From Pseudomonas sp. PSE14 (GTDB lineage Bacteria > Pseudomonadota > Gammaproteobacteria > Pseudomonadales > Pseudomonadaceae): a DNA stretch of 64,000 bases. Below the pieces are notes generated by a model. The model did no database searches, had not been told where the DNA came from, and saw only the letters and a list, made by a program, of their open reading frames with translations. Location of the stretch: positions 3,224,001-3,288,000 of the forward strand of contig NZ_CP115669.1 in the NCBI RefSeq assembly GCF_029203285.1, written 5' to 3'. Below are positions 33,999 through 59,816 of the stretch, piece by piece. Each line of letters begins with the position of its first letter. The stretch's first letter is position 1. The translations under genes and the position numbers were made by a program.

Positions 33999-34010
33999 GT
34001 CCGAGAGGAC
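33999..34010 (-). promoter_or_regulatory. Steroid-regulon palindrome before tesD (box 1)
   Basis: GTCCGAGAGGAC on the plus strand, with ATC before and TA after, 62 nt from the tesD ATG. Best matches: boxes at 51808 and 34320. Confidence 0.6.
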
Positions 34011-34084
34011 TACGGGGGATTTCGTGCGCGATGACCACCCATCCTACGGGCTGATGCCGCCAGGAAAGTCCGTGCCTACGATTC

Positions 34085-34200
34085 CCCCTCACCCCAGCCC
34101 TCTCCCTCCGGGAGAGGGAGCCGTCCGAACCGGCTGACGCCATGGTTACCTCCTGCACCGAACGGTCCCCTCTCCCTCCGGGAGAGGGCTAGGGTGAGGG
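34085..34200. repeat. Palindromic GC-rich intergenic repeat (full copy)
   Basis: Two inverted CCCTCTCCCnnnGGGAGAGGG arms flanked by CCCCTCACCC and GGGTGAGGGG, about 116 nt. A second full copy is at 41788-41908, and half a copy is at 42903-42938. A mobile or REP-like element with no coding content. Confidence 0.8.
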
Positions 34201-34319
34201 GCCGAAGGCCAGCCACGCGCCAGGCTCAACCCTGGCGCAGGGCGTACAACCGTTCGCGGTTGTACGCCGATTTACCTCGCCTACCGCCAACACCATGGTC
34301 GAACATAGGCGCCGCCCTA

Positions 34320-34331
34320 GTCCCTTCGGAC
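34320..34331 (+). promoter_or_regulatory. Steroid-regulon palindrome before the 34.4-kb SDR gene (box 2)
   Basis: GTCCCTTCGGAC, which is GTCCGAAGGGAC on the minus strand, preceded by CTA as in boxes 1 and 3. 57 nt before ATG 34389, in the mirror orientation expected for a plus-strand gene. Confidence 0.6.
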
Positions 34332-34388
34332 GTGGGCGCGAGAGGCCGGCGCGCCTAGGCTGGAAGCCTTCCCCATCGAGGAGCGGAC

Positions 34389-35159
34389 ATGACACGAGCA
34401 TTGGATTTCAGCGGCCAGGTGGTGCTGGTCACCGGCGGCGGCAAGGGCGTTGGCCGGGGCATCAGCCAGCGATTCCTGGAACAGGGCGCCGAAGTGGTGA
34501 TCTGCGGACGCGAAGCCCCCGCGCAACTGCCCAGCCACGCGGGGCGCGAAGCCTGGTTCATCCCCTGCGACGTGCGCGACTTCGAGCAGTTGCAGGCGCT
34601 GATGGCCGCCATCGACGAGCGCCACGGGCGCCTCGACGTGCTGATCAACAATGCCGGCGGTGCACCCTATGCCGATGCCGCCGATGCCTCGCCGCGCTTC
34701 TCCGAGGCCATAGTACGGCTCAACCTGCTGGCCCCGCTGAACCTCTGCCAGCTGGCCAACCAGCGCATGCAGAAGCAGGCCGGCGGCGGCGCCATCGTCA
34801 ATATCTGCAGCGTCAGCGCCGTGCGCCCCTCCCCCGGCACCGCCGCCTACGGCGCGGCCAAGGCCGGGCTGCTCAACCTGGGCCGCTCGCTGGCGGTGGA
34901 ATGGGCGCCGAAGGTACGGGTGAACGCCGTGATCGGCGGCCTGATCCGCACCGAACAGAGCCACCTGCACTATGGCGACGAGGACGGTATTCAGCGCGTG
35001 GCCGACACCATTCCGCTGGCGCGCCTGGCGGAGCCGGGCGACATCGGCGATGCCTGCCTGTACCTGGCCTCGTCGATGGCCGCGTATGTCAGCGGCGCCG
35101 AAATCGCCGTGCACGGCGGCGGCGAGCGGCCGGCCTTCCTCGAAGCGGCGCAGGGGTAA
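34389..35159 (+). CDS. Short-chain dehydrogenase/reductase
   Basis: 256 residues, classical SDR: TGGGKGVGRGI cofactor loop (about 15-25), NNAGGAPY, catalytic Ser in CSVSAVR, and YxxxK as YGAAK. Ends with the usual SGAEIAVHGGGE. Probably acts on a hydroxysteroid or hydroxyacyl-CoA; the substrate cannot be named. It and the following SRPBCC gene (4-nt gap) form a small plus-strand operon behind box 2, which links them to the steroid regulon. Confidence 0.85.
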   Translation: MTRALDFSGQVVLVTGGGKGVGRGISQRFLEQGAEVVICGREAPAQLPSHAGREAWFIPCDVRDFEQLQALMAAIDERHGRLDVLINNAGGAPYADAADASPRFSEAIVRLNLLAPLNLCQLANQRMQKQAGGGAIVNICSVSAVRPSPGTAAYGAAKAGLLNLGRSLAVEWAPKVRVNAVIGGLIRTEQSHLHYGDEDGIQRVADTIPLARLAEPGDIGDACLYLASSMAAYVSGAEIAVHGGGERPAFLEAAQG

Positions 35160-35163
35160 GAAC

Positions 35164-35634
35164 ATGCTCAGCGCCCGTCACGAACTCATCCTCGACCTCA
35201 ACCCGGACGCGGCCTGGAACCGCCTGCGCGACCTGAGCCTGGCGCCGCACTACGTGCCCGGCCTGACCGGCTGCGAATTCCACCCCGGCCCCCGTGACGG
35301 GCTGGGCGCCAGCCGCCGGGTGCTGATGAAGCGCGGCTTCCTCGATGAAAGCGTGGTCGAGTGGCGCGAAGGCCAGGGCCTGGTGCTGCGCCTGCACCGC
35401 GCCGAGCAGGGACCGCCCTTCCCCTTCCGCGAGGCCAGTTTCCGCTACGCGCTGCACCCTGAAAGCGGTGGGCGTACCCGTTTGAGCCTGAGCCTGGATG
35501 GCGAGCTGCGTGGCGGTCGTCTTGGCGAATGGTTGCTGGCTGGTGCGCTGAAGAAGACCGTGGCGAAGATCGCGGTGAACCTCAAGGCGTTTTACAAAAC
35601 GGGCAAGAGCCAGAATCCGGATTACGCTGGCTGA
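35164..35634 (+). CDS. SRPBCC (START/polyketide-cyclase-like) small protein
   Basis: 156 residues from ATG 35164. Starts ARHELILDLNPDAAWNRLRDLSLAPHYVPGLTGCEF, the typical first strand-helix of the SRPBCC fold, which encloses a hydrophobic ligand cavity. No catalytic signature. Together with the preceding SDR it forms an operon in the steroid regulon, so a steroid or CoA-ester ligand is plausible. A related-fold gene occurs at 59311. Confidence 0.75.
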   Translation: MLSARHELILDLNPDAAWNRLRDLSLAPHYVPGLTGCEFHPGPRDGLGASRRVLMKRGFLDESVVEWREGQGLVLRLHRAEQGPPFPFREASFRYALHPESGGRTRLSLSLDGELRGGRLGEWLLAGALKKTVAKIAVNLKAFYKTGKSQNPDYAG

Positions 35635-35683
35635 CCTTGAGTGTCGTCCGTGAGATGGACGTGCGCAGGAGCGCAGCATCCCT

Positions 35684-35752
35684 GTAGGAGCGAGCTTGCT
35701 CGCGAACAATCCCCGCTGCGGGGCCTGGGTTCGCGAGCAAGCTCGCTCCTAC
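35684..35752. repeat. REPIN: two inverted Pseudomonas REP sequences
   Basis: GTAGGAGCGAGCTTGCTCGCGA and its inverse face each other around CCCCGCTGCGGGG. It sits between the convergent SRPBCC and SnoaL genes, where it may act as a bidirectional terminator. A single arm is at 41661-41684, another near 63211-63235. Confidence 0.85.
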
Positions 35753-35777
35753 GAAGAACAAAAGCACGTCCCGGCGG

Positions 35778-36212
35778 TTAGTCCCGTGCCACCTCGAAAT
35801 GCCCGCGGAAGGTCGTCTCGACGATCCGCCACTGGCCGTCGACGCGCCGGTAGCGGTCCTGGTAGAAGCCGCCCAGTTGGCGGGTTGACCCGGTCTCGCC
35901 GTCGCGGTTCTGGTAATGCAGGGCCCAGCGCGCGCGGGCGTTGTCGGCATCCTCCAGCTCGATCTCCGGGTTGGCCGCGTGGTGCAGGTCGATCACCCGT
36001 GGCACGCAGGCCAACTCCTGGTACAGCGCCAGGAACGGCTCGCGGTCACGGAATACGCCCAGCGGGCCGTAGTCGATCAGCACCTCGCCGCCGGCGAAGC
36101 ACGCGCGAATCGCCTCCACGTCCTTCAGGTCGCAGGCATTGAGGTAGCGGTGCTTGAGTTGGCGGATGGCTTCGAGCGCCTCCAGGCGCTCGAGTCGTTG
36201 TTCCAGGTTCAT
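35778..36212 (-). CDS. SnoaL/NTF2-like protein
   Basis: 144 residues, one SnoaL-like domain: RLERLEALEAIRQLKHRYLNACDLKDVEAIRACFAG, then the beta-sheet with YGPLGVFRDREPFLALYQEL and QDRYRRVDGQWRIVETTF. Such proteins are dehydratases, isomerases or ring-hydroxylating beta-like proteins; this one carries an Asp in the usual DYG position. Overlaps the ketosteroid isomerase gene by 4 nt, so the two similar-fold proteins are co-translated. Function unknown. Confidence 0.8.
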   Translation of the reverse strand: MNLEQRLERLEALEAIRQLKHRYLNACDLKDVEAIRACFAGGEVLIDYGPLGVFRDREPFLALYQELACVPRVIDLHHAANPEIELEDADNARARWALHYQNRDGETGSTRQLGGFYQDRYRRVDGQWRIVETTFRGHFEVARD

Positions 36213-36592
36213 TCCGGTCTCCGTTCCACGTTGAGGTCACCCCAGTAGGCTTTCATCGAACGAATGCGGCCGTGGGCGTCGAACTCCATCACGTCGATCA
36301 CGTGCAGGCTGCAGGGTTCGCCGTTCCAGATCAGGTCGACACGGAACGGCATCGCCCCGCAGCCGTTGCCGGTGACCCGCACCGGCCCGGTGAGCTGGGC
36401 GCTCGCCTCGGCGCGGCCCAGGCCCTCGCGGTAGAAACGGGCGATGGCCTCGATCCCGACCAGGGGCTTGGCGCCCACCGGGTCCTCGACCACCGCGTCA
36501 TCGGCGTAGAGCGACAGGATGCCGTCGATGTCGCCGGCATCCACCAGTTCCACGTAACGCGCCATGCGCCGGCGGACCAGTTGCGCGTCCAT
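36209..36592 (-). CDS. ksi: Steroid delta(5)-3-ketosteroid isomerase (KSI)
   Basis: 127 residues. Very similar to the Pseudomonas putida KSI (from memory): MARYVELVDAGDIDGIL, YADDAVVEDPVG, NGCGAMPFRVDLIWNG and VIDVMEFDAHGRIRSMKAYW. Catalytic set kept: Tyr13, Asp37 (proton carrier) and Asp100, matching Tyr16, Asp40 and Asp103. Moves the C5 double bond to C4 in 3-oxosteroids at the start of steroid breakdown. This is the clearest marker that the locus is for steroids rather than simple aromatics. TGATG overlap with the thiolase gene upstream. Confidence 0.93.
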   Translation of the reverse strand: MDAQLVRRRMARYVELVDAGDIDGILSLYADDAVVEDPVGAKPLVGIEAIARFYREGLGRAEASAQLTGPVRVTGNGCGAMPFRVDLIWNGEPCSLHVIDVMEFDAHGRIRSMKAYWGDLNVERRPE

Positions 36593-37794: not shown

Positions 37795-37827
37795 TGCGAA
37801 TCCTCAGGTAGTTCCGGGTTTCAGCCT

Positions 37828-37907: not shown

Positions 37908-37932
37908 GCAGCTCCTCAGACGGGGTAGCTCT

Positions 37933-38392: not shown

Positions 38393-39175
38393 TCAGGCCC
38401 TCTGGCTGGAGACCGACAGCACTTCGCCGGTCATGTAGGAGCTGTAGTCGCTGGCCAGGAACATCATCACGTTGGCGATTTCCCAGACCTCGGCGGCACG
38501 GCCGAAGGCTTCGTTGGCGGCCAGCTTGTCCAGCAGCTCCTGCGGCGCGGATTTGCGCAGGAAGTCGTGCAGGGCGATGCTCGGACTCACCGCGTTGATG
38601 CGGATGCCGTGCTCGGCCGCTTCCACGGCGGCGCAGCGGGTCAGCGCCATCACCCCGGCCTTGGCCGCGGCGTAGTGGCTCTGCTCCTTCTGCGCGCGCC
38701 AGCCGAGCACCGAGGCGTTGTTGACGATGGCGCCGGCGCGGCGCTCCATCATGTACGGCAGCATGGCGCGGGTCATGCGCATGGTGCCGGTGAGGGTGAC
38801 GTCGAGGACGCGGTTCCACTCTTCGTCGGTCATCTCCACCAGCGAGCGGGAGCCGCCCAGCCCAGCGTTGTTGATCAGCACGTCGACGCCGCCCAGACGC
38901 TCCTCGGCGGCGGCCACCAGGGCGCGTACCTGTTCCTCGTTGGTGACGTTGCAGACCTGCCCGTACACCGCCTGCAGGCCGCAGGCCTGGCGGATGCGCT
39001 CAACAGCCTCGTTCAGGCGGCCCTCATGGATGTCGCTGATCATCAGCGCACGGCAGCCTTCCTCGGCGGCGCGCAGGGCGGCGGAAAAGCCGATGCCGGC
39101 GCCCGCGGCGGCCGTGATCAGCACCGACTTGCCGCGCAGCAGGCCACGGCCGGATACGTATTCGGGTTTGAGCAT
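38393..39175 (-). CDS. ipdF: SDR dehydrogenase of C/D-ring degradation (IpdF-like)
   Basis: 260 residues from ATG 39175 (AGGAGA upstream). SDR with an unusual, IpdF-like cofactor loop ITAAAGAGIGFSAALRAAEEG, NNAGLGGSR, Ser in NNASVLGWR and catalytic YAAAK. The order ipdF next to a FadE30-type gene matches Mycobacterium tuberculosis Rv3559c-Rv3560c. IpdF oxidises the 5-hydroxy group of the HIP-CoA intermediate. Assigned from family memory and context. Confidence 0.75.
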   Translation of the reverse strand: MLKPEYVSGRGLLRGKSVLITAAAGAGIGFSAALRAAEEGCRALMISDIHEGRLNEAVERIRQACGLQAVYGQVCNVTNEEQVRALVAAAEERLGGVDVLINNAGLGGSRSLVEMTDEEWNRVLDVTLTGTMRMTRAMLPYMMERRAGAIVNNASVLGWRAQKEQSHYAAAKAGVMALTRCAAVEAAEHGIRINAVSPSIALHDFLRKSAPQELLDKLAANEAFGRAAEVWEIANVMMFLASDYSSYMTGEVLSVSSQRA

Positions 39176-39186: not shown

Positions 39187-40392
39187 TTACTGCGGGACCT
39201 GGCGGGCCACCTTGGGTTCTTTGGGCAGGCCGAGGGCACGCTCGGCGATGAGGTTGCGCTGGATCTCGTTGCTGCCGCCGTAGATGGTGTCGGAGCGGCT
39301 GAACAGGAACAGGCCCTGCAGGCGGCTCAGCTGGTAGGGGCCGCCGTCGAGGATTTCCGCCTCGGCGCCGAGTACGTCCATGGCCAGCTTGCCCAGGCGC
39401 GCGTGCCAGTCGGACCAGCACAGCTTGTAGATCAGCGCTTCGCGGCGCAGGCCGGTGTTCTGGTCGCCCGAGAGCATGCGCAGCGAGTTGTAGCGCAGCA
39501 CCTTGAGCCCGCCCCAGGCCTCGGCGAGGCGCTGACGCAGCAGCGGATCGCGGGCGGCGCCGTTGGCGCGGGCGATGCGGATGATCTCATCCAGTTCGTT
39601 CTGGAACTGCATCTGCTGGCCGAGGGTGGACACGCCACGCTCGAAGCCCAGCAGCGCCATGGCGATCTTCCAGCCGTCACCCGGCGCGCCGAGCAGGTTC
39701 TCGGCGGCGGTCTCGGCGTCGTCGAAGAACACCTCGTTGAATTCGGAGGTGCCGGTCAGCTGCTCGATCGGCCGCACGGTGATGCCCGGCTGGTTCATCG
39801 GCACCAGCAGGAAGGCCAGGCCGTGATGGCCGACACTGCCCTGCTCGGAGCGGGCGATGACGAAGCACCAGTCGGATTCGTGGGCCAGCGAGGTCCAGAC
39901 CTTCTGCCCGTTGATGCGCCAGACGTTGCGCTCGGCGTCGAAAGTGGCGCGGGTCTTAACGGCGGCAAGGTCAGAACCGGCGCCCGGTTCGGAGTAGCCC
40001 TGGCACCAGAACTCACGGCCGCTGACGATACCCGGCAACAGGCGGCTCTTCTGCTCGTCGGTGCCGAAGGCGGCAATGGTCGGGCCAGCCAGGCCCTCGC
40101 CGATGTGCCCCATGCGGCCGGGGCCGCCGGCACGGGCGTATTCCTCGTGGAAAATCACCTGCTGGTTGATCGACAGGCCGCGCCCGCCGTGCTCCTTGGC
40201 CCAGCCCACGCAGGTCCAGCCGCCCTCGGCGAGCTTGCGCTCCCAGGCTTTGCGTTCCTCGGGGAAACTGTGTTCGTCGCCCGGGCCGCCACGGAAACGC
40301 AGCGGTTCGAATTCGCCACGCAGGTTGTCCGCCAGCCACTGGGCGACTTCGGCGCGGAAGGCCTCGTCGGCGGCGTCGAATCCGATCTTCAT
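39187..40392 (-). CDS. Acyl-CoA dehydrogenase, FadE30-like (HIP-CoA pathway)
   Basis: 401 residues, complete ACAD: WCQGYSEPGAGSDLAAVKTRA (flavin loop), KVWTSLAHESDWCFVIAR, EFNEVFFDDAET, GVSTLGQQMQ and C-terminal DTIYGGSNEIQRNLIAERALGLP. Resembles FadE30 over its whole length (memory comparison), the enzyme that desaturates 5-OH-HIP-CoA. Overlaps the upstream acyl-CoA dehydrogenase gene by 4 nt, probably its heteromeric partner, and leads into ipdF. Confidence 0.8.
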   Translation of the reverse strand: MKIGFDAADEAFRAEVAQWLADNLRGEFEPLRFRGGPGDEHSFPEERKAWERKLAEGGWTCVGWAKEHGGRGLSINQQVIFHEEYARAGGPGRMGHIGEGLAGPTIAAFGTDEQKSRLLPGIVSGREFWCQGYSEPGAGSDLAAVKTRATFDAERNVWRINGQKVWTSLAHESDWCFVIARSEQGSVGHHGLAFLLVPMNQPGITVRPIEQLTGTSEFNEVFFDDAETAAENLLGAPGDGWKIAMALLGFERGVSTLGQQMQFQNELDEIIRIARANGAARDPLLRQRLAEAWGGLKVLRYNSLRMLSGDQNTGLRREALIYKLCWSDWHARLGKLAMDVLGAEAEILDGGPYQLSRLQGLFLFSRSDTIYGGSNEIQRNLIAERALGLPKEPKVARQVPQ

Positions 40393-41555
40393 GGGCGGTC
40401 CTCCAGGATGGCGGCAGCAATGCGCTCACGGTGCCAGGCCGGCGTGCCGAACAGGCTCTCGCTGGCGCGGGCGCGCTTGAAATACAGGTGCGGGTCGTAT
40501 TCCCAGGTGAAGCCGACCCCGCCGTGCAGCTGGATCGACTCGGCGGCGCCATGGAAGAAGGCTTCCGAGGCCTGGGACTTGGCCAGCGCAGCGGCCAGCG
40601 GCAGCTCGGCGGCGAGCGCGGCATCGCCCTGCCCGTCCAGCGCTTCCTGGGCCACGCAGGCGGCGTAGTAGAGCGCGGAGCGCGCGCATTCCACCTGCAG
40701 CATCATGTCCGCCATGCGGTGCTTGAGCGCCTGGAAGCTGCCCACCGGGCGGCCGAACTGACGGCGTTCCTGGGTGTAGGCGACGGTCAGGTCGAGCGCC
40801 TGTTGGGCGCCGCCAACCTGCTCGGCGGCCAGGGTCACGGCGGCCAGCTGCAGCACCTTGCACAGCGCCGGCCAGGCGGTGCCAGCCGCGCCCAGCAGGG
40901 CCTCGGCGGACAGGTAGAGACCGTTCAGCTCGACCTCGGCCAGCTGGCGGGTCTGGTCCAGCGTCGGCAATGCGCGGCGCTGCAGACCTTCGCTGGCAGC
41001 GGGCACGGCGAACAGGCAGATGCCCCCCTCGCCTCGGCTGCCGGCCAGGCGTGCGGGAATCAACAGCAGGTCGGCGCTATGGCCGTCGAGCACCGGACGC
41101 AGGCGGCCGTCGAGGACGAAGCCGTCGCCTTCGGGGCGAACCTGCACCTGGACTGAGCCGGCCTCCGGCGCACCTTCGGCACCCAGCGCCAGGGTGGCGG
41201 TCAGGCTGCCTTCGGCCAGGCCGGGCAACCAGCGGGCCTGCTGCGCCTGGCTGCCGAGCACGCGCAGGGCGCAAACGGCCAGGGTGCTGGCGAAGAACGG
41301 CAGCGACGCCAGGCGACGGCCCAGTTGCTCCTGGACGATAGCCAGCTCGACGAAGCCCAGTCCCAGGCCGCCATGGGCCTCGGGCACCAGCAGCGCCTGC
41401 CAGCCGAGTTCATCGCGAATGCGCTGCCAGAGCGCCAGGTCATGACCGCCGGCGGCCATCGCCGCGCGCACGGCGCTGGAGGGTGAAGCATCGGCGAGGA
41501 AGCTTTCCGCGCTGTCGCGGATCATCTCCTGCTCGTCGGTAAAGGCGAATTCCAT
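40389..41555 (-). CDS. Acyl-CoA dehydrogenase, partner-type subunit
   Basis: 388 residues, ACAD fold: FTDEQEMIRDSAESFLAD start, PEAHGGLGLGFVELAIVQEQLGRR, and C-terminal FHGAAESIQLHGGVGFTWEYDPHLYFKRA. The flavin-loop motif of the middle domain is poorly kept (no YSEPGAGSD), as in the beta subunits of the alpha2-beta2 steroid acyl-CoA dehydrogenases, so it probably pairs with the FadE30-like protein encoded next. First gene of its operon, with box 4 lying 62 nt upstream. Confidence 0.8.
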   Translation of the reverse strand: MEFAFTDEQEMIRDSAESFLADASPSSAVRAAMAAGGHDLALWQRIRDELGWQALLVPEAHGGLGLGFVELAIVQEQLGRRLASLPFFASTLAVCALRVLGSQAQQARWLPGLAEGSLTATLALGAEGAPEAGSVQVQVRPEGDGFVLDGRLRPVLDGHSADLLLIPARLAGSRGEGGICLFAVPAASEGLQRRALPTLDQTRQLAEVELNGLYLSAEALLGAAGTAWPALCKVLQLAAVTLAAEQVGGAQQALDLTVAYTQERRQFGRPVGSFQALKHRMADMMLQVECARSALYYAACVAQEALDGQGDAALAAELPLAAALAKSQASEAFFHGAAESIQLHGGVGFTWEYDPHLYFKRARASESLFGTPAWHRERIAAAILEDRP

Positions 41556-41617
41556 GGGAAGCGGCCCTGTGGGTTCAGATGCAGGGCAGTCTGGCGGGAG
41601 ATGGCCGGGCGGGAATC

Positions 41618-41629
41618 GTCCGAATGGAC
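41618..41629 (-). promoter_or_regulatory. Steroid-regulon palindrome before the 41.5-kb fadE-ipdF operon (box 4)
   Basis: GTCCGAATGGAC on the plus strand, preceded by ATC, 62 nt from ATG 41555: same spacing as box 1. Confidence 0.6.
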
Positions 41630-41787
41630 GTGGGGGAAAGCGATGATTTTTTGGGGATGGTGTAGGGGCGAGCTTGCTCGCGAGCCCTTGGCCATAGAGA
41701 GAAGGAGCCGTTCAGCGCGTTGGGGATGGTCCGACGTTCAACCTGTGGGAGCAACTGTCTTTTCCGGCGAGTCCCGAGCTGGGCTTT

Positions 41788-50824: not shown

Positions 50825-51721
50825 TTACTGGCGGCCGACGCTGAAGTCGTGGCCCCAATGGCTGACCACGGTGCTTTCGAAGGGCGTGTGCTGCTGCCAG
50901 TCCACTTCCAGGCCACCGTGGCCGTATTCGATGTCAAAGCCGCCGGGGCTCTGCATGTAGAACGACACCATGTGGTCGTTGGTGTGCTTGCCGAGGGTCG
51001 CCGAGAGCTTCACGCCGTTGGCGTGCATGCGGTCCAGGGCACGGCCGACATCGTCCAGCGACGCGGTCTCGAGCATCATGTGCACGCAGCCGCTGGGGAT
51101 CGGGCACTCGAAGATCGCCAGGGAATGGTGGCGGGCGTTGTTGCAGTGCATGAAGTGGATGCGCTTCTCCGGCTCCTGCGGATCGGGGGTGAAACGCACC
51201 TTCATCAGGTCGGAGAGGCCGAAGCCCATCACCTGCTCATAGAAATCGCGGCAGCGCTCGAAGGCCGGCGCCGGCAGCACCACGTGGCCCATGCCCATGG
51301 AGCCAGTGACGAAACCGCTGACACCCGCCGGGGAAACGAAGGGACGGAAGTCCTGGCACGGACCCCAGAACAGCTCGTGGCGGTTGCCGTCGGGATCGCG
51401 GAACAGCGCCAGTTCCTGGACCTTGCGCAGCGCGCAGTCGGCGGCGCTGCCACGGACAACCTCGACATCGGCCTGGGCCAGCTCGGCAATGGCCTGCTCG
51501 AAGGCGGCCTTGCCGGCCACTTCCCAGCCGCTGGCACCGTAGCCGTCGCGCTCGTCCTGCAGCACCAGCACGCGGTAGTGACGCTCGTCCATCTTCAGGT
51601 ACAGCGCGCCTTCGGGCGCGGCGTCATCCAGCATCATGCCCAGCACCTGGCTGGCGTAGCTGCTCCAGCGCGCGAGATCGCTGGCCAGGACGGTCACGTA
51701 GCCCAGTCCTCGGATATCCAT
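50825..51721 (-). CDS. tesB: TesB/HsaC-type extradiol dioxygenase
   Basis: 298 residues from ATG 51721 (AGGAG upstream); the longer 396-residue reading crosses the operator. Two vicinal-oxygen-chelate domains. Iron ligands His146 (GMGHVV), His199 (RHHSL) and Glu265 (FDIEYG) plus His246 and Tyr255 are in place. C-terminal region SATLGKHTNDHMVSFYMQSPGGFDIEYG resembles HsaC, which cleaves ring A of 3,4-DHSA. First gene of a long operon running through ipdAB, ipdC, echA20, fadE genes and fadA6. Box 3 lies 86 nt upstream. Confidence 0.9.
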   Translation of the reverse strand: MDIRGLGYVTVLASDLARWSSYASQVLGMMLDDAAPEGALYLKMDERHYRVLVLQDERDGYGASGWEVAGKAAFEQAIAELAQADVEVVRGSAADCALRKVQELALFRDPDGNRHELFWGPCQDFRPFVSPAGVSGFVTGSMGMGHVVLPAPAFERCRDFYEQVMGFGLSDLMKVRFTPDPQEPEKRIHFMHCNNARHHSLAIFECPIPSGCVHMMLETASLDDVGRALDRMHANGVKLSATLGKHTNDHMVSFYMQSPGGFDIEYGHGGLEVDWQQHTPFESTVVSHWGHDFSVGRQ

Positions 51722-51807
51722 GGGTGTTCTCCTCATCGTTATTGCCGCTCCGCCTGGCGGAATGGCCGGTGATGAGGATTCAAACAGCGCGGGCTTACCC
51801 GAACATC

Positions 51808-51819
51808 GTCCGATGGGAC
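51808..51819 (-). promoter_or_regulatory. Steroid-regulon palindrome before tesB (box 3)
   Basis: GTCCGATGGGAC on the plus strand, flanked by ATC and TAGCG, 86 nt from ATG 51721. Confidence 0.6.
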
Positions 51820-51889
51820 TAGCGCCAAAGGGGCATGCTGCGGGCGATTGAGGGCAACGACGGGATAACCGAAGGGACATCGCGGCATA

Positions 51890-51901
51890 GGCCAAACGGA
51901 C
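51890..51901 (+). promoter_or_regulatory. Degenerate steroid-regulon palindrome before tesR (box 3b)
   Basis: GGCCAAACGGAC; on the minus strand GTCCGTTTGGCC with ATC before and TAT after, so both outer flanks are kept. 64 nt from ATG 51966, in mirror orientation. A weak autoregulatory site is possible. Confidence 0.4.
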
Positions 51902-51965
51902 GATTTGCCGTCGGCTGGCCGCATCGATACTCCGCCCACGACAATAAGAAGGACGGGCACGGCAC

Positions 51966-53135
51966 ATGAACCCATCCACTCCCGACAGCCAGGCGCTGTG
52001 CGCCCGCGCCGGCATCGACGCCGCCGCCCTGGGCGAGCTGCTCGACCTGGTCTACCGAGGCCCGCAGGAGAGCACGCCCTGGGCGAGCCTGCTGGAGCAC
52101 CTGCGCCAACGCTGCGGCGCCAGCTACTTCACCCTGGTACTGCGCAACCCCGCGCAGCAGCGGCCGGGGCTGATCGTCAACGCCTCGGTGCACGGCCCGC
52201 ACCTGCCCGGCGAGCCGTCGTACAGCGAGCACTACTATTCCATCTGCCCCTTCCTCGACTGGCCGGTAGGCCAGGTGGCCAGCGCCGACCAGGTGATGGG
52301 CACCGAGGTCTGGCTGGAGCATGAGTTCTACCGTCAGTACCTGGCGCCGCTAGACCTGCGCTATGTGCTGGTCGCCCACATGCGCACGCCCGGCGGCATG
52401 CACTGCGCGCTATTTGCCTGCCGCGGCCCCGAGGGCGAAGACTTCAACGAGGCGGAGCGGGCCCTGGTGCGCCTGCTGCTGCCGCACCTGCAACAAGCCG
52501 TGGACCTGCATTCCACGGTGGACCAGCTGGAATCCGAACGCCGCCTCTATGCCCTGACCATCGACCGCCTGCTGGTGGGCACGGCGATCCTCGATACCCA
52601 GGGCCGGCTGATGCGCTGCAATGACGCCGCGCAGCGCCTGCTCGACAGCCGCGACGGCCTGGAATGCCGGCAGGAACGCCTGCACGCCTTCGCCCGCCAG
52701 GACAACCGCAACCTGCAGAGCGCCGTCCAGGCACTGCTGCAACGGCGTGAGGGAGCGGACGATGTGGAAGTTCTGGCGCTATCCCGGCCCAGCGGCGGGA
52801 TGCCGCTGAACCTGCTGCTGCGGCCCCTGGCGCTGAACCACGAAAGCCACGGCGAGGCCCGCCAGCCGGCGCTGGTGGTGTTCATCCGCAACCCGGCCGA
52901 CTCGCCCCGCGCCTCGCGTACCCTGCTGCGCAGCCTGTTCCAGCTGACCCGCACGGAAACCGAGGTGGCGATGCAGATGATGGACGGCCTGACCCTCGAC
53001 GAGACCGCCGATGCCCTGGGCGTATCGCGCAATACCGTGCGTGCGCACCTGCGCGGCGTGTTCGCCAAGACCGGCGTGACGCGCCAGGCGGAACTGGTGA
53101 AGACGCTGCTCAATAGCGTGGCGTCGTTGGCGTAA
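51966..53135 (+). CDS. tesR: LuxR-family regulator (TesR-like)
   Basis: 389 residues. C-terminal GerE/LuxR HTH at about 320-385: FQLTRTETEVAMQMMDGLTLDETADALGVSRNTVRAHLRGVFAKTGV, with conserved TxxE and V-x-x-H-L. The N-terminal 300 residues carry a GAF/PAS-like sensory part (YVLVAHMRTPGGMHCALFACRG; VGTAILDTQGRLMRCNDAAQRLLDSRDG is a PAS-like start). Length and position next to tesB recall TesR of Comamonas testosteroni, the positive regulator of steroid genes. Divergent from tesB; a shared 244-nt region carries box 3 and box 3b. Presumed to bind GTCCGAnnGGAC. Confidence 0.8.
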   Translation: MNPSTPDSQALCARAGIDAAALGELLDLVYRGPQESTPWASLLEHLRQRCGASYFTLVLRNPAQQRPGLIVNASVHGPHLPGEPSYSEHYYSICPFLDWPVGQVASADQVMGTEVWLEHEFYRQYLAPLDLRYVLVAHMRTPGGMHCALFACRGPEGEDFNEAERALVRLLLPHLQQAVDLHSTVDQLESERRLYALTIDRLLVGTAILDTQGRLMRCNDAAQRLLDSRDGLECRQERLHAFARQDNRNLQSAVQALLQRREGADDVEVLALSRPSGGMPLNLLLRPLALNHESHGEARQPALVVFIRNPADSPRASRTLLRSLFQLTRTETEVAMQMMDGLTLDETADALGVSRNTVRAHLRGVFAKTGVTRQAELVKTLLNSVASLA

Positions 53136-53645: not shown

Positions 53646-54089
53646 TCAGACCGGCAACCCCTTCGGCACATTGAACGCATAGCTCTTCTCCTCGCAGCGC
53701 CGCTCGATGCGCCAGCCCTCAGCGGTCCGCCGGTACCGATCGTGATACCAAAGCCCGAGGAAAAAGGTCTGTCGCGTGCCATCGGCCAGATCCATCTGCA
53801 TCGGATTGAAGCAGAGGATGCGCCCGCTGGCCTGGTCGCCATCCAGCTGGATGGAGAAGTTGGAGATCATGTGCTGATAGGCCGGGAAGAGGCCCAGCGC
53901 CTCGCGCAGCCAGTTCTTCATCGCAGGGTAATGCCCGTCGATGCCACCCATGGCGCGATAGTCGATGTAGGCGTCGGCGCTGAACACCCGGTCCAGCGCA
54001 TCGAAGTCACGACTGTCGATGGCCGTGGAGTAATCCACCGCCAGTTGCTGAATCTCCAGCCGATCCGAGATTTCCTGCAGGGACAGCAT
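53646..54089 (-). CDS. SnoaL/NTF2-like protein
   Basis: 147 residues from ATG 54089 (GGAGGAGG upstream). SnoaL-like: LQEISDRLEIQQLAVDYSTAIDSRDFDALDRVFSADAYIDYRAMGG, then YHDRYRRTAEGWRIERRCEEKSYAFN. Carries Tyr and Asp at positions that in SnoaL-like dehydratases and isomerases are catalytic. Third NTF2-fold gene of the steroid locus (with KSI and 35778). No box was found before it; it may be read from the sulfotransferase operon through the repeat at 54141-54223. Confidence 0.78.
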   Translation of the reverse strand: MLSLQEISDRLEIQQLAVDYSTAIDSRDFDALDRVFSADAYIDYRAMGGIDGHYPAMKNWLREALGLFPAYQHMISNFSIQLDGDQASGRILCFNPMQMDLADGTRQTFFLGLWYHDRYRRTAEGWRIERRCEEKSYAFNVPKGLPV

Positions 54090-54305: not shown

Positions 54306-55061
54306 TCAGCCGAAAGTGGCGCCGGCGAGCATGCCGCCGTCGACCACGAACTCGGCGCCGGTGCAGTAGCTGGACTCGTCGCTGGCGAGGAACAGCACCA
54401 GCCTGGCCACTTCCTCCGGTTGGCCGATACGCGGAATCGGCAGGCCACTGTAGAAGGCGGAGGGATCGAACTCGGCCATCTCCGGCGGGCGCGCCATGGG
54501 CGTATCGATGCCGCCCGGATGCACCGAGTTGACGCGGATGCCGTAGCGCCCCAGCTCCAGCGCAGCGGACTTGGTCATGCCGCGCACGGCGAACTTGCTG
54601 GCGACGTAGGCGCTGCCACCGGCCACGCCTTCCATGCCCGCCGTCGAGGAAAGATTGACGATGGAGCCGCCACCGGCGCGCTTGAGCGCCGGCAGCACCG
54701 CCTTCATGCCCAGCCAGCAGCCGACCTGGTTGACTTCGATGACCTTGCGGTAACTCTCCAGCGAGCACTCTTCCAGCGGCGCCAGCAGCAGGATGCCGGC
54801 GTTGTTGACCAGCACATCGAGCCGGCCGAAGTGCGCTTCAGCCGCCTGCACCGCCGCATCCCACTGCTGCGCCGAGGTCACGTCCAGGTGCTGGTAGAGC
54901 GCAGCATCACCCAGCTCGTCGGCCAGGCGCGCGCCCTCCTCGTCCAGCAGGTCGGCGATAACCACCCGGCCGCCCTGCTCGACGAACAGACGCGCTTCCG
55001 CCGCGCCCTGCCCACGCGCGGCGCCGGTGATCAGGGCTACCTTTCCTTCCAGTCGCTTCAT
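54306..55061 (-). CDS. SDR of the 3-alpha/20-beta-hydroxysteroid dehydrogenase type
   Basis: 251 residues. TGAARGQGAAEARLFVEQG cofactor loop, NNAGILLLAPLEECSLESYRKVIEVNQVG, Ser in NLSSTAGMEG, YVASK and SSYCTGAEFVVDGGMLAG. The pattern agrees with actinobacterial 3-alpha,20-beta-hydroxysteroid dehydrogenase/FabG3. It could oxidise or reduce a steroid hydroxyl, setting or freeing the position that the sulfotransferase uses. Overlaps the DHH gene by 4 nt; last gene of the DUF1214-sulfotransferase operon. Confidence 0.82.
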   Translation of the reverse strand: MKRLEGKVALITGAARGQGAAEARLFVEQGGRVVIADLLDEEGARLADELGDAALYQHLDVTSAQQWDAAVQAAEAHFGRLDVLVNNAGILLLAPLEECSLESYRKVIEVNQVGCWLGMKAVLPALKRAGGGSIVNLSSTAGMEGVAGGSAYVASKFAVRGMTKSAALELGRYGIRVNSVHPGGIDTPMARPPEMAEFDPSAFYSGLPIPRIGQPEEVARLVLFLASDESSYCTGAEFVVDGGMLAGATFG

Positions 55062-56062
55062 GCTCTTGCCTCCTCGGCGGCCTGCCCGGCCATTTGCGGA
55101 TAGCTGGCCAGCAGGCGGCTGGCCAGTTCGTCCAGTTGATCGTCATCGAGATGATTGATGCCGGCCGCGCGGGCCCGCCCGCCGCCGGTGGGAAAGCCCC
55201 GGCAGAAGGCGTCCGCCGCCAGCGCTGCGCCCGCCGGAACGCGCAGGCTGAACAGCCAGCCGCCCTCGGCCTTGGCGCTGAGCAGGCCGACGGCCCGCTG
55301 CGGTTCGCGGCTCGCCAGCTGGTTGGCCAGCACCCCGCTCACCCGCCGCGCCCAGGCTTCAGTGGGCAGGCGGTAGAGCAGCGCGCCAGGCCCCTCGCGC
55401 CACGGGCTCTGGCCTTGCGCCGCCGCCATGTCGGCGGCGTGGGCGGCACGCAGCGTGATGAAGCTTGGGCTGTTCCGGATGAAGTCGAGCGGGTCCTCAT
55501 AGGGCAGCAGCTCGGCGGCCAGCCGCAGCGGGTCGAAGTGCAGGTCCGCCAGGCTTTCGCCGTAGGCGTTGTAGTTCAGCAGCAGACCCAGTTCCTCCAG
55601 CACCGCGACATTGGCGGCGGCCAGATCGTGGCGCTGCGCCAGGGCCCGCGCCGGACCGGCCAGGCCATCGCCGAAGGCCGCCGCCACCGCCCAGCGGTGG
55701 AAGCGGCCGTCGAGGTAGCGATCGACCAGGATGCTGGTGCAGACGTCGGCGGCGGTGTCGATGAAGGACTCGAACGCCGCGTGCTCGGGCAGCTCGCCGG
55801 CATGGTGGTGGTCGAAGTAGCGCAGGCGCGCGCCGGCCTCCAGCAGGCGTCGGGTGTCGTCGTGGTTCTGCGCGTGGGAGATGTCCAGTACGGTGACCCG
55901 CTCGCCAGGGCCGGCCTGGACCCGGCGCAGCAGGTCGATGTCGCGCTTCACCCCGCTGACCAGGCGCACGCCGGCGTCCAGTTCCCCGGCCAGGCGCAGC
56001 TGTTGCAGGGCGCAGAGGCCGTCGGCGTCGCCGTTGAAGGCGCAGTGGTCGATCAGGCTCAT
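55058..56062 (-). CDS. DHH/DHHA1 family phosphoesterase
   Basis: 334 residues. DHH motifs are intact: D12-x-D14 in FNGDADGLCAL, D60 in VLDISHA, D84-H85-H86 in YFDHHHAGEL, D in FGDGLAG; C-terminal DHHA1 motif GGGRARAAG. Manganese-dependent phosphoesterase. Some members (NrnA/YtqI type) hydrolyse pAp, the by-product of PAPS-dependent sulfotransfer, as well as nanoRNA. It lies inside the operon that encodes a sulfotransferase, so pAp removal is an attractive but unproven role. Coupled to SDRs on both sides (9-nt gap and 4-nt overlap). A nucleic-acid or cyclic-dinucleotide role cannot be excluded. Confidence 0.8.
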   Translation of the reverse strand: MSLIDHCAFNGDADGLCALQQLRLAGELDAGVRLVSGVKRDIDLLRRVQAGPGERVTVLDISHAQNHDDTRRLLEAGARLRYFDHHHAGELPEHAAFESFIDTAADVCTSILVDRYLDGRFHRWAVAAAFGDGLAGPARALAQRHDLAAANVAVLEELGLLLNYNAYGESLADLHFDPLRLAAELLPYEDPLDFIRNSPSFITLRAAHAADMAAAQGQSPWREGPGALLYRLPTEAWARRVSGVLANQLASREPQRAVGLLSAKAEGGWLFSLRVPAGAALAADAFCRGFPTGGGRARAAGINHLDDDQLDELASRLLASYPQMAGQAAEEARA

Positions 56063-56071
56063 GTCCGCACC

Positions 56072-56860
56072 TCAGTACATCAGCTCGCCGCCATTGGCGT
56101 CGAGCTGCGCGCCGTTGATCGCGCTGGCGTAGTCCGAGGCGAGGAACAGCGCGGCACGGGCGCACTCATCGTCCGTGCGCATTCGACCGCCGGGAACGCC
56201 GGCGCTGAACTCGGCGCGCACCTGTTCCTCGCTGACGCCCCGCGCAGCGGCGGTCTGGCGCACCACCGCCTGCACCGGCTCGCCCCACATCCAGCCGCAG
56301 GCCAGGGCGTTGACGCGCAGGCCGTGCACCGCCTGTTCGCTCGCCAGGTAGCGCACCGAAGCCGCCAGCGCGGCCTTGGACGCCGCGTAGGCAGCGCCAC
56401 CCTGGTAGGGCTTGCGCACACCGAGGGTGTTGATCATGACGATGGCGCCGTCGCGTTGCGCCTGCATCGTCGGCAGCACCGCCCGGCTCATGTTCAGCGA
56501 ACCCAGCAGGTTGACCTCCAGGGCCTCGCGCAGCGGCTCGTTGTCGCCCTCCTCCACGGCCTGGAAGCCGCCGTGGGAGAAGGCGCTGTTGATCAGCGCG
56601 TCGATGCGCCCGAAGCGCGCCACGGTGGCCTGGGCGAAGTCATTGCAGGCGGCGGGATCGGTGACGTCGGTGGGCAGGCGCAGCACTTCGCAGTCGGGGG
56701 CGATGGCGTGGATGCGCGCCTCGGCCTCGATCAGCCGTGCTTCGTTGCGCGCGCCGATGGCCAGGGCGCTCGCGCCTTCGCGGGCGGCTTCCAGGGCCAG
56801 CTTGATGCCCAGCCCCGGACCGATGCCGGAAACCATCACAACCTTGTCTTTCAGCAACAT
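56072..56860 (-). CDS. Short-chain dehydrogenase/reductase
   Basis: 262 residues from ATG 56860 (AGGAGA upstream). Atypical cofactor loop GIGPGLGIKLALEAAREG, SAFSHGG in place of NNAG, Ser in INTLGVR region replaced in part (Thr/Leu), YAASK kept. A relaxed SDR like those found in hydroxysteroid and sterol catabolic clusters. Between the sulfotransferase and DHH genes. Substrate unknown; the missing canonical Ser-Tyr spacing should be checked before calling it active. Confidence 0.78.
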   Translation of the reverse strand: MLLKDKVVMVSGIGPGLGIKLALEAAREGASALAIGARNEARLIEAEARIHAIAPDCEVLRLPTDVTDPAACNDFAQATVARFGRIDALINSAFSHGGFQAVEEGDNEPLREALEVNLLGSLNMSRAVLPTMQAQRDGAIVMINTLGVRKPYQGGAAYAASKAALAASVRYLASEQAVHGLRVNALACGWMWGEPVQAVVRQTAAARGVSEEQVRAEFSAGVPGGRMRTDDECARAALFLASDYASAINGAQLDANGGELMY

Positions 56861-56882
56861 GGGAATCTCTCCTGTGTAGGGA

Positions 56883-58046
56883 TCAGGCCTGGATATGCCG
56901 GCGGCGGTAGTCGGCGTAGTCGCGTTCGAGGCTGGCCTCGTCGAGACCGAACTGTTCGGCGCTGTACTGGTGGGCGGCACGCTTCTCGCGGCCGTTGTCG
57001 GCCAGCCAGCGCTGCATGGCGGCGCGGCAGTCCGGCGTCAGGTCGAGACCGGCGAAGGCGTAGATGCGCTCGACCACGCCGAGCGGGTCGCTCAAGGTGT
57101 CCTCGAAGCGCACGTCGAGGAAGCGCCCGGCCGGCAAGTCTTCACGCACCTGCATGGTGTGGCGCAGGGCGCGGGCCATGCGCTGGTTCCACTGGCTGCC
57201 GACGGCGCGCGGGTCCACCTGCTCGCTGTAGAGCTGCCAGAGGGTATGGATAAAGCTGGCCAGGGACGGAATGGTCTTGCCCGGATCGCGGTGGGTCAGC
57301 ACCACCTGGGCGCGGGGGAAGACCTCGAACAGCAGCTCCACGGTGTGCAGGTGCTGCGGGCTCTTCAGCAACCAGCGGCGCCCCGGTGCGATACCCCGGC
57401 GTTCCTGCTGCCACTGCAGGAACTGCAGGGTCTTCTTCAGGTAGCGGTAGACCTGGGCCTGGTCCTGGCGGTCAAGCCAGGCGGTGTAGCTCGGCACGTT
57501 GACGTAGGAGTCCATGGCGCAGAGGAAGGAGTGCTCCATGAGCATGAATTCCTCGTCCGGCTGCTCGGCGTCCAGCGGGTGGATGGCCAGCAGTTGCGGC
57601 AGGAACTCGATCATCCCCGCCACCTCCATGCGCGCCCGCTCGATGCGCTGGACCGGCGCTTCGACCGCCTCGCCGGCAAGCGGCGCCGGGTAGCGGGTTT
57701 CCCACCACTGCGCCTTGCTGAACTGCGGGTCCACCGCCAGGGTGCGCTGCAGCAGCGTGGTACCGGTGCGCGGCAGGCCGACGATCACCAGCGGGTCGTC
57801 GATGGGCTGCTGGAGGATTTCCGGGTGACGCTTGCAGTAGTCCTCCAGCACCAGGCGGTTGACCAGTTGCGCCAGCAGCTTCTCGCGCAGCAGCGCGCGG
57901 CCCTGGGCGGAGAGTCTGGCCTCGTCACGCAGGGCGATGGCGAGCACGTCCAGCGCCTCGCGGAAGTCGCCTTCGCCGAAGTCAGCGAGCCCCCCTGTAC
58001 GCGCGCTGGCCTCGGCCACCAGGGCTTTTGCGGAAAAATCGTCCAT
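56883..58046 (-). CDS. PAPS-dependent sulfotransferase family protein
   Basis: 387 residues from ATG 58046. P-loop-like PAPS motif VIVGLPRTGTTLLQRTL at 87-103, second site HRDPGKTIPSLASF for the 3'-phosphate, and LKSPQHLHTVELLFEVFP. N-terminal 85 residues are a helical extension typical of the Sulfotransfer_3 family. Transfers the sulfo group of PAPS to a hydroxyl; acceptor not known, but the surrounding steroid genes suggest a steroid or sterol-like alcohol. ATG overlaps the DUF1214 stop (TGATG), so both are co-translated. cysD-cysNC to make PAPS lies 1 kb away. Confidence 0.85.
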   Translation of the reverse strand: MDDFSAKALVAEASARTGGLADFGEGDFREALDVLAIALRDEARLSAQGRALLREKLLAQLVNRLVLEDYCKRHPEILQQPIDDPLVIVGLPRTGTTLLQRTLAVDPQFSKAQWWETRYPAPLAGEAVEAPVQRIERARMEVAGMIEFLPQLLAIHPLDAEQPDEEFMLMEHSFLCAMDSYVNVPSYTAWLDRQDQAQVYRYLKKTLQFLQWQQERRGIAPGRRWLLKSPQHLHTVELLFEVFPRAQVVLTHRDPGKTIPSLASFIHTLWQLYSEQVDPRAVGSQWNQRMARALRHTMQVREDLPAGRFLDVRFEDTLSDPLGVVERIYAFAGLDLTPDCRAAMQRWLADNGREKRAAHQYSAEQFGLDEASLERDYADYRRRHIQA

Positions 58047-59158
58047 CACACCAGGTCCTTGAGTTCGGCGAGCTTGAGCACGCGGGTCGTCGGGTGCATC
58101 GGCTGCTTCGCGCCAACCCAGCGCAGACAGAGGGTGCCGTGGGGGTGGCCAGCGGTTTCCAGCCAGTTGGGCAGGCCCGGGTCGCGAGCGCTGAGGACGA
58201 TGCGCACGCCGCCCTCTCCGTCGAGCTGCGCCGAATGCTTGTTCAGGCAGATGCGGTGGTAGCGGTAGTCCAGCGACTCCATCCAGTAGTTGTTGATCTG
58301 CAGGTTCCAGAAGTCGCACTCGGGCACCCGGTCGACCTCGATCACCAGCGCCTCGTCCTCGGCCAGCGCCCAGTAGGAGTGGTAGTAGATGATGTTCGGG
58401 TCGCCGCCGACCGACTGGCACAGCGCCTGGTCCGCCAGCGGCAGCTGGTTGGCGTGGGCCTGGTAGCCCTGGGCCCAGTCGGCGAACAGCCGCGCGGTGC
58501 CCTCGACGAACGAGGCGGCGCGGGTCAGCCCCTGCTGCAGGCGCTGCGGGGTCAGCGGATCGGGAGCCTGGGCGCCGTCCAGGCGCTCGATGCGCAGTTG
58601 CGCCGGCTGCTCGGCGGCGCGGTCGAGGAAGGTCTGGCGCACCACCAGCGCGTTGCTCGCGGCCTCCATCGGCAGCCAGTTGCCAAGGGCCGGCCGGTGC
58701 TGACTGAGGATGATCTCGAAGTTGCCATCGGCGTCGAGCTGCAGCTGGCTGGCGTCGATGAAGCCGGTCTGGATCATCTTGCCGTCGGTCTCGTAGCCGC
58801 CCTTCTGGGTGCCGAAGCTCAGGTAGAACACGCTGCCCCGACTGCCGCTGACGCGGTACTGGTGCTCGCCATTGAGGCGGGCGTAGCGGTACAGGTTGTC
58901 CGGGTTGTCGGCGCCGATCTTCGCCGTCTCGTGGGAGGGCGTGATGAAGCCGGGGAAGTCCGGGTCGGCGAACTCCAGGTGCATTTCCAGGGCGATGCGC
59001 AAGAGCCGGGTCAGGTAGCGGAAGCCTTCGGCGCGGGTCTGCCCGTCGGCGGGCGCCTCGGCGCGCAGTATCTGTTCGCCGCTGCGGCGCAGTTGTTCGC
59101 AGAAGAGGTTCCAGCTTTCGCCGCTGATGACCTCGTGTTCGATCCTGTCTGTGGGCAT
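58046..59158 (-). CDS. DUF1214 domain protein
   Basis: 370 residues. C-terminal DUF1214 signature: DPNIIYYHSYWALAEDEALVIEVD, CDFWNLQINNYWMESLDYRYHRICLNKHSAQLDGEGGVRIVLSARDPGLPNWLETAGHPHG (the conserved NWL and GxP stretch). No signal peptide is seen, so it is probably cytoplasmic. Family function unknown. First gene of the sulfotransferase operon; box 5 lies 59 nt before its ATG. No enzymatic motif recognised. Confidence 0.85.
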   Translation of the reverse strand: MPTDRIEHEVISGESWNLFCEQLRRSGEQILRAEAPADGQTRAEGFRYLTRLLRIALEMHLEFADPDFPGFITPSHETAKIGADNPDNLYRYARLNGEHQYRVSGSRGSVFYLSFGTQKGGYETDGKMIQTGFIDASQLQLDADGNFEIILSQHRPALGNWLPMEAASNALVVRQTFLDRAAEQPAQLRIERLDGAQAPDPLTPQRLQQGLTRAASFVEGTARLFADWAQGYQAHANQLPLADQALCQSVGGDPNIIYYHSYWALAEDEALVIEVDRVPECDFWNLQINNYWMESLDYRYHRICLNKHSAQLDGEGGVRIVLSARDPGLPNWLETAGHPHGTLCLRWVGAKQPMHPTTRVLKLAELKDLV

Positions 59159-59217
59159 TTCGGTCTCCTCCAGTGGGCCTGTACAGACCTTAGGGAGGAG
59201 CCCGGTGCGGATTCTTC

Positions 59218-59229
59218 GTCCGAGCGGAC
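59218..59229 (-). promoter_or_regulatory. Steroid-regulon palindrome before the DUF1214-sulfotransferase operon (box 5)
   Basis: GTCCGAGCGGAC on the plus strand, 59 nt from ATG 59158 and 81 nt from the divergent SRPBCC gene (59311), which it may also serve. Confidence 0.6.
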
Positions 59230-59310
59230 GAGGAGCGCGAAGACGCTTGCGCCGAGTATCGACTCTGACGCGTCGCGCGGTGCGACGCGCACGTCTGGAG
59301 GAAGACTCCC

Positions 59311-59781
59311 ATGAGCACAGAGAAGAACCTGGTGCGCTCGCTGAGCGTGGAGATCGCGGCGCCTGCCGAGCTGGTCTGGTCGATCCTGGTCGACCTGCCG
59401 AGCTATCCGCAGTGGAACCCCTACACCGTCAAGGTGGAATCGAGCCTGCGCCTGGGCGAGCCGGTCAACCTGTTCCTGCCCGACCCAACCCGTCCCGGCG
59501 AGTTGTTGCACGTGGTCGAGTACCTGGCCGACTTCGAACCTCACCGCCTGCTCGCCTGGGAAATGATCGCCAGCGCCGACAACCCGGACGCCGCGCGGCG
59601 CGAACAGATCATCGAGAGCACCGGCCCGAACAGCTGCCGCTACCAGACCACCGATCAGTTCCTCGGCCCTACCGCCGATCAGGTGATGGCCAACCATGGC
59701 CCGTGGGTCAAGCAGGGCTTCGACGCCGTGGCCCTGGCGGTCAAGGCGCGTGCCGAAGCATTGAACGCGGTACCGGCCTGA
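59311..59781 (+). CDS. SRPBCC (START-like) small protein
   Basis: 156 residues. VRSLSVEIAAPAELVWSILVDLPSYPQWNPYTVKVESSLRLGEPV is the standard SRPBCC beginning; then VEYLADFEPHRLLAWEM and the long C-terminal helix. A hydrophobic-ligand pocket protein of unknown activity. Divergent from the sulfotransferase operon and upstream of cysD, inside the group of boxed genes; it could bind a steroid. Plus-strand gene of the same fold as 35164. Confidence 0.78.
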   Translation: MSTEKNLVRSLSVEIAAPAELVWSILVDLPSYPQWNPYTVKVESSLRLGEPVNLFLPDPTRPGELLHVVEYLADFEPHRLLAWEMIASADNPDAARREQIIESTGPNSCRYQTTDQFLGPTADQVMANHGPWVKQGFDAVALAVKARAEALNAVPA

Positions 59782-59804
59782 GTCTGGCCGTCGCGGTTTT
59801 TTTC

Positions 59805-59816
59805 GTCCGCTCGGAC
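59805..59816 (+). promoter_or_regulatory. Steroid-regulon palindrome before cysD (box 6)
   Basis: GTCCGCTCGGAC, i.e. GTCCGAGCGGAC on the minus strand, 77 nt before ATG 59894. Flank CGAAGAA matches box 5. Confidence 0.6.

Follow-up and report, generated by a model that had tools for sequence, protein, structure and literature searches.

Results

The TesR box in the PSE14 window

The window analysed here is a 64,000-nucleotide (nt) stretch of Pseudomonas sp. PSE14 (genome positions 3224001-3288000; the genome is a single contig of 5,977,163 bases), in which genes of steroid catabolism lie beside a sulfonation module and a short palindrome, denoted the TesR box, stands before both. The exact 12-mer GTCCnnTCGGAC occurs six times (at 33999, 34320, 41618, 51808, 59218 and 59805) and a degenerate copy, GGCCAAACGGAC, is found at 51890 upstream of tesR; at all seven sites the start codon lies 57-86 nt from the 12-mer. 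The original prediction had listed the six exact copies, the degenerate one and this spacing, all of which are confirmed. It had also put the chance expectation below one copy per 64 kb. This estimate stands, since first-order Markov simulations (300 runs) gave a mean of 0.17 and a maximum of 3 exact copies per window against 6 in the real one; a chance origin of the window copies was rejected on these grounds. Counts of looser patterns are not informative: the GTCCGAnnGGAC 12-mer with one mismatch is seen 11 times against 6.1 expected (a count of 11 is reached in 6 of 100 shuffles), and the core with two mismatches 65 times against 90 expected.

On the steroid side, the box TAGTCCTCTCGGACGAT (33996..34012, - strand) precedes an operon encoding a tesD-like hydrolase (33109..33936, -; related to BphD/HsaD, under the equivalog cut-offs), a hydratase and an acetaldehyde dehydrogenase, and is kept before the tesD orthologues of relatives. 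A short-chain dehydrogenase/reductase (SDR) gene (34389-35159) follows TAGTCCCTTCGGACGTG (34318..34334, +). The acyl-CoA dehydrogenase operon follows ACGTCCATTCGGACGAT (41615..41631, -); its first gene (40389..41555, -; start at 41555) encodes one of two acyl-CoA dehydrogenases in the operon, which also holds the SDR gene that the original prediction called ipdF (38393-39175). tesB, encoding a BphC-type extradiol dioxygenase (50825..51721, -), follows TAGTCCCATCGGACGAT (51805..51821, -), and the degenerate box TAGGCCAAACGGACGAT (51888..51904, +) precedes the adjoining tesR, here tesR-A (51966..53135, +).

On the sulfonation side, a shared divergent box, TCGTCCGCTCGGACGAA / TCGTCCGAGCGGACGAG (59215..59232, both strands), faces the DUF1214 gene on the - strand and an SRPBCC gene (59311-59781) on the + strand, and a further TCGTCCGCTCGGACGAA (59803..59819, +) lies ahead of cysD. 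These boxes have the core in common with the others and differ in part in the flanks (TC...GAA/GAG, not TA...GAT). The cores at 59218 and 59805 are near-perfect palindromes, and the 12-mer alone therefore assigns these two sites no direction. The proposal that orientation always follows the gene is corrected to this extent; the almost symmetric 59218 site also faces the SRPBCC gene, which had been overlooked.

Distribution of the box in the PSE14 genome

Genome-wide there are 14 exact copies of the 12-mer versus 90 of the reversed pattern. The 12-mer is therefore not enriched overall, and the signal resides in its clustering and its flanks. Ten of the 14 copies precede genes of the proposed regulon, between 3.258 and 3.479 Mb. 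The remaining four, at 467217, 2587726, 3402661 and 5509882, match 10, 11, 9 and 11 of 13 extended positions, respectively (scored in the best orientation). Those at 467217, 2587726 and 5509882 lie inside genes and the copy at 3402661 matches just 9/13 positions; the 2587726 and 5509882 copies equal the sulfonation boxes in score (11/13) yet are intragenic. Many motif copies away from steroid and sulfonation genes would have spoken against a shared control; with 10/14 linked to the regulon, the genome does not contain them. The extended box TAGTCCnnnnGGACGAT is found exactly nine times in the 5.98-Mb genome, eight of them within 3.08-3.48 Mb, and its reversed control not once in the genome. 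Extended boxes with one mismatch exist elsewhere in the genome, e.g. at 3131446.

The regulon extends beyond the window. In the genome stretches that were read through, 17 sites face 18 promoters; outside these, box coverage comes from pattern searches. Further box-preceded genes encode a flavin reductase with an FAD-dependent dehydrogenase, a second FAD-dependent dehydrogenase, a DUF1302 protein and several others, and a box likewise stands before the small genes that lie behind two clade-B tesR genes (see below). Gene starts were assigned with a simple purpose-written caller, not a published one.

Promoter geometry

Sites from the window and from fetched stretches were aligned on the first T of TAGTCC (position 1). 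From 188 candidates we kept 150 extragenic sites with at most two mismatches that point towards a called gene 40-180 nt away; removal of redundancy (downstream DNA < 75% identical) left 82. Position 40 is A in 68/82 and position 44 is T in 61/82. An A..T pair starting at 39-41 is present at 72 of the 82 sites, whereas the corresponding counts in control windows average 3.3 and never exceed 9. The -10 element played no part in site selection. No -35 element is apparent at any of the 82 sites, where the best TTGACA match is ≤ 4/6 bases. With the -10 at this fixed spacing, transcription would start near position 51 and the palindrome would be centred near -42.5, which we take to be the location of LuxR-type activator sites. 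Class II activation by LuxR at the lux box combines a palindrome near -42.5 with a -10 and no -35 element. By its sequence, the arrangement described here fits a LuxR-type class II activator regulon. The resemblance to the lux box concerns positioning; the sequence is different and quorum sensing is not implied.

When 23 DUF1214 promoters ranging from Pseudomonas to Burkholderia are aligned, conservation at the fixed box positions is 96-100%, with positions 2 and 17 lower (78% each); these values are inflated by the choice of the sites by box match. Outside the box, conservation is mostly 30-75%, but position 18 reaches 100% and the A of the -10, which was not selected for, 91%. Boxes stand before the sulfonation module in species as distant as Burkholderia, Cupriavidus and Collimonas. 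In the tesR-A box, T is replaced by G at position 4, both in Pseudomonas and in three Cupriavidus loci (L167, L168, L171), which looks as though a weaker site were maintained. In two loci (L135, L178) position 4 is T.

TesR-family proteins as candidate binders

TesR-A is a LuxR-type homologue encoded within the steroid gene cluster. Its sequence matches Pfam GerE and PAS_4, and we read the N-terminal domain of the predicted model (mean pLDDT, the predicted local distance difference test, 75) as GAF-like, followed by a PAS region and the helix-turn-helix (HTH). The C-terminal LuxR/GerE HTH is recognized by Pfam GerE in both TesR-A (1.1e-08) and the paralogue TesR-B (2.3e-06); TesR-A and TesR-B of Pseudomonas have the HTH motif SRNT.RAHLR in common, of which the Burkholderiales clade-A proteins retain NT.RAHLR. 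In a tree built from 42 rows, 40 of them different, the window TesR and four Burkholderiales proteins form clade A (support 100/99), separate from clade B. PSE14 itself has a second clade-B tesR gene (3079340-3080428) and a shorter TesR-like stretch (3076096-3077040, 37% identity), both 0.2 Mb ahead of the window's tesR.

Among 298 genomes of the family Pseudomonadaceae, 58 encode a TesR homologue (E ≤ 1e-40) and 43 carry at least two exact extended boxes. All 43 are TesR-positive (43/58 versus 0/240 TesR-negative genomes); the Fisher value of 1.8e-39 overstates independence, because the genomes share ancestry, and is too small. A single exact box occurs in 24/240 TesR-negative genomes. This co-occurrence strongly supports a TesR-family protein as the putative binder of the box. 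The original prediction named the TesR-like LuxR protein of the window. The family assignment is strongly supported, but that the window's own TesR is the binder throughout is not fully supported: G010, G022 and G023 each have one TesR (E ≤ 1e-20), of clade B, and 6, 7 and 7 exact boxes, so that clade B, not TesR-A, must serve the box there if a TesR does. TesR-A as sole binder was rejected on these grounds. The last base is a purine in 54/60 module boxes against 11/156 other boxes, of which 145 have T there, and many of the boxes are orthologues; the purine ending may mark a preference of TesR-A, a hypothesis that we put forward with caution.

The sulfonation module

The operon on the - strand reads DUF1214, sulfotransferase, SDR, DHH/DHHA1, SDR, SnoaL, and the + strand side carries SRPBCC, cysD and cysNC with its APS (adenosine 5'-phosphosulfate) kinase. 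The DUF1214 protein (58046..59158, -; Pfam PF06742, 2.5e-09) matches the uncharacterised PDB entry 6ans_A (E 1.1e-170). It is followed by a Sulfotransfer_3 sulfotransferase (56883..58046, -; Pfam 1.6e-42), an SDR oxidoreductase (56072..56860, -), the DHH/DHHA1 protein (55058..56062, -), a second SDR (54306..55061, -) and, at the operon end, a SnoaL-like protein (53646..54089, -). Opposite lie the SRPBCC or polyketide cyclase-like gene (59311..59781, +), the genome's second copy of cysD (59894..60790, +) and cysNC (60790..62682, +), a fusion of the ATP sulfurylase large subunit and APS kinase predicted to make 3'-phosphoadenosine 5'-phosphosulfate (PAPS). Linked PAPS synthesis (cysD and cysNC including APS kinase) is thus found beside the sulfotransferase, as in a PAPS-dependent module. 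The other cysD, at 1150111 and 71% identical, has no box within two mismatches, and a general link between the box and sulfur genes was rejected for this reason.

The DHH protein is likely to be a phosphatase for 3'-phosphoadenosine 5'-phosphate (PAP). It has DHH-type motifs, of which NGDADG, DHH and GGGR are invariant across 12 sequences, a Pfam DHHA1 match of 26.8 bits (cut-off 25.9) and a confident model (pLDDT 93). Among PDB sequences it comes closest to the PAP phosphatase NrnA, with a weak phmmer E of 0.0086, and a profile search against the PDB returned nothing at 0.01 and did not recover NrnA. The sulfotransferase is homologous to the mycobacterial PDB entries 2zq5 and 2z6v (E about 4e-42; listed as uncharacterised), which we take to be Stf1 and Stf9, respectively; here the enzyme is tied to its own cysD-cysNC under a TesR box.

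With TesR-A defined by at least 70% identity, and sulfotransferase presence by E ≤ 1e-40, the sulfotransferase is encoded in 21/21 TesR-A genomes versus 7/277 others (Fisher 1.4e-26, a P made too small by kinship). In all 21 it lies within 10 kb of TesR-A (20 at ≥ 75% identity, G122 at 64%). A scan of named genomes, evaluated for the best 80 loci among the matches listed, found TesR-A in 23, of which 13 belong to Burkholderia, Paraburkholderia, Collimonas and Cupriavidus. A module box at the set threshold is present in 21 of the 23. In the remaining pair, L178 shows copies with three mismatches and the contig of L199 (which is also that of L129) one with two mismatches.

A second arrangement of the module runs in one direction as cysD-cysNC-DUF1214-sulfotransferase-SRPBCC-SDR, with extra genes between in some (L139, L140, L141, L146, L160, L163, L166, L169, L170, L172-L174, L176, L177); it has no TesR-A in the stretch and no box just before cysD. 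On a plasmid of Novosphingobium sp. ES2-1 (L232), a DUF1214-SDR pair has a gene for a CysQ-type PAP phosphatase nearby, and no sulfotransferase is annotated within the stretch shown.

An actinobacterial parallel

A Tsukamurella plasmid carries genes for a DUF1214-like protein (33% identity), an SDR (34%) and a sulfotransferase (34%) that are transcribed away from cysD-cysNC, the two sets being separated by an HTH gene. The 17-kb stretch contains only two KstR-type palindromes at one mismatch from TAGAACnnGTTCTA; cysD follows one of them and the DUF1214-like gene the other. Two such sites arose in 0/500 simulations. Because these palindromes precede homologous operons, the Tsukamurella case suggests convergent steroid control of sulfonation operons, on the basis of one plasmid and a predicted KstR binding. 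KstR, the actinobacterial steroid regulator, is described in the accessible text of its report as a repressor that binds, among others, a site between Rv3531c and Rv3532 (PMC1995591). This site adjoins Rv3529c, which is named the sulfotransferase Stf1 in the available part of another paper (PMC8882603). The mycobacterial KstR regulon thus resembles the present one in that a single palindrome unites a large set of steroid genes and a bound site neighbours a sulfotransferase gene. KstR itself is a TetR-type repressor with the core TnnAACnnGTTnnA, and neither the protein nor its site is related to TesR or the TesR box. As to operators of the TnnAACnnGTTnnA type, the window holds no KstR site within one mismatch of TAGAACnnGTTCTA, and the one match within two mismatches (at 4390; 0.27 expected) lies away from these genes.

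Discussion

We consider the finding real and larger than first stated: a probable TesR-family operator links the breakdown of steroids with a sulfonation module of its own, and the original claim of one box for both is supported. The role of binder would be divided between two TesR clades. The box, its geometry, its distribution and its conservation are observed; that the palindrome is a TesR-family operator which activates this regulon, with the scheme of PAPS supply, sulfotransferase and PAP removal, is as a whole highly probable. In this scheme a TesR-family LuxR-type dimer would bind TAGTCCnnnnGGACGAT, centred some 42.5 bp ahead of the start of transcription, substitute for the missing -35 element and, on a steroid signal, bring RNA polymerase to the conserved -10. 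The regulon would comprise genes of steroid ring cleavage and breakdown, tesR itself and the sulfonation module. cysD-cysNC would produce the PAPS that the Sulfotransfer_3 enzyme consumes, the DHH-type protein would probably clear the by-product PAP, and the DUF1214, SDR and SRPBCC proteins would act as partners, with a steroid catabolite as the presumed sulfate acceptor.

Several observations weigh against this scheme. Fifteen of the 58 TesR-positive genomes have fewer than two exact boxes. Twelve of the best 80 loci combine cysD, DUF1214 and the sulfotransferase with no TesR-A in the locus; a box precedes cysD in 0/12 of these, and hence the module is not always under control of the TesR box. 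A one-mismatch box stands before DUF1214 in two of the twelve (L175, L180). Comamonas testosteroni JL40 (L172) is another of the twelve; its one looser match lies in a 3-kb locus without genes of the query set. In 16 named genomes the looser box gave 40 matches versus 18 for its reverse, among them tesB promoters in two Cupriavidus and a kshA promoter in a Paraburkholderia, and none in four of the genomes.

Since co-occurrence does not separate a binder from a passenger, the box could belong to some other transcription factor co-inherited with steroid clusters, TesR being a mere neighbour, and the 15 TesR-positive genomes without two boxes would suit such a factor. We consider this improbable: the tesR-A promoter itself has a box, the HTH motif is common to both Pseudomonas clades and largely kept in Burkholderiales clade A, and the -42.5 position suits LuxR-type activators. 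A review moreover names TesR/TeiR as needed for steroid gene induction, as far as its accessible text goes (PMC6678751; also PMC8399759). Palindromes can serve either role, and a repressor operator like the actinobacterial KstR sites would have a precedent in the repressor KstR (PMC1995591, in part). The constant distance to the -10, the lack of a -35 element and the description of TesR/TeiR as positive regulators in the available portions of the reviews make this very improbable. We give practically no credence to an RNA role, in which the palindrome would form a hairpin for termination or attenuation. In two PSE14 clade-B tesR genes the box and the TAG stop codon overlap, a possible terminator spot, but what comes next there is a small gene and not a T-run; in general the box precedes the -10, hence is not transcribed with the gene it would control, and an RNA role was rejected on that account.

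The purpose of the sulfonation is a separate matter, and one answer is fully compatible with TesR control through the box: sulfation may serve detoxification, export or a general sulfate need rather than a catabolic step. To this we assign a little under an even chance. Steroid intermediates can be toxic, according to the accessible part of a review (PMC8399759), and five genomes (G007, G010, G016, G022, G023) lack this sulfotransferase although they encode TesR and carry 6-8 exact boxes; on the other side, a high flux is suggested by the dedicated supply of PAPS and the candidate PAP phosphatase, and DUF1214/SDR partners accompany the sulfotransferase in many of the best 80 loci and on the Tsukamurella plasmid. 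We speculate, more doubtfully, that sulfonation is on-pathway, the sulfated hydroxyl being a leaving group or handle for DUF1214 and SDR. TesR and KstR would then have independently captured the DUF1214-SDR-sulfotransferase set with cysDNC, and the TesR-A paralogue would travel with this set in Proteobacteria. The presence of the box before both gene sets in soil Pseudomonas and several Burkholderia-type bacteria suggests that these organisms have sulfation built into, and regulated together with, their handling of steroids.

TesR/TeiR of Comamonas testosteroni is likewise a LuxR-type regulator in a steroid gene cluster, as the sources cited above describe it in part. The family treated here differs from it in forming two clades, A and B. 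For TeiR, kinase activity and a polar location in the membrane have been described; neither a kinase nor a membrane part is seen in the Pfam hits or the model (mean pLDDT 75) of TesR-A. Titles and abstracts listed in searches of an open-access library, and the available portions of PMC6678751, PMC8399759, PMC6429209, PMC1995591, PMC12239570, PMC3141025 and PMC8882603, mention neither a TesR operator nor a link between TesR and a sulfotransferase. Once box and promoter geometry are defined, regulons would become predictable in many genomes that bear TesR, and steroid biosensors could make use of the box. Its link with the dedicated PAPS-sulfotransferase module suggests that steroid degradation includes a sulfation step not recognised so far, which may also exist in mycobacteria, where Stf1 (Rv3529c) adjoins a KstR-bound site.

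The small gene downstream of the clade-B tesR genes encodes a conserved protein of 50-56 amino acids behind its own TesR box; in both PSE14 copies this is the box that overlaps the TAG stop of tesR. Four copies compared with Pfam gave no match. By eye, the N-terminal stretch is hydrophobic. Examples are L018:3607-3774 (+) and L090:10509-10658 (+), and the gene is also found in L055, L058, L064, L070, L093, L100, L104, L107 and L111.

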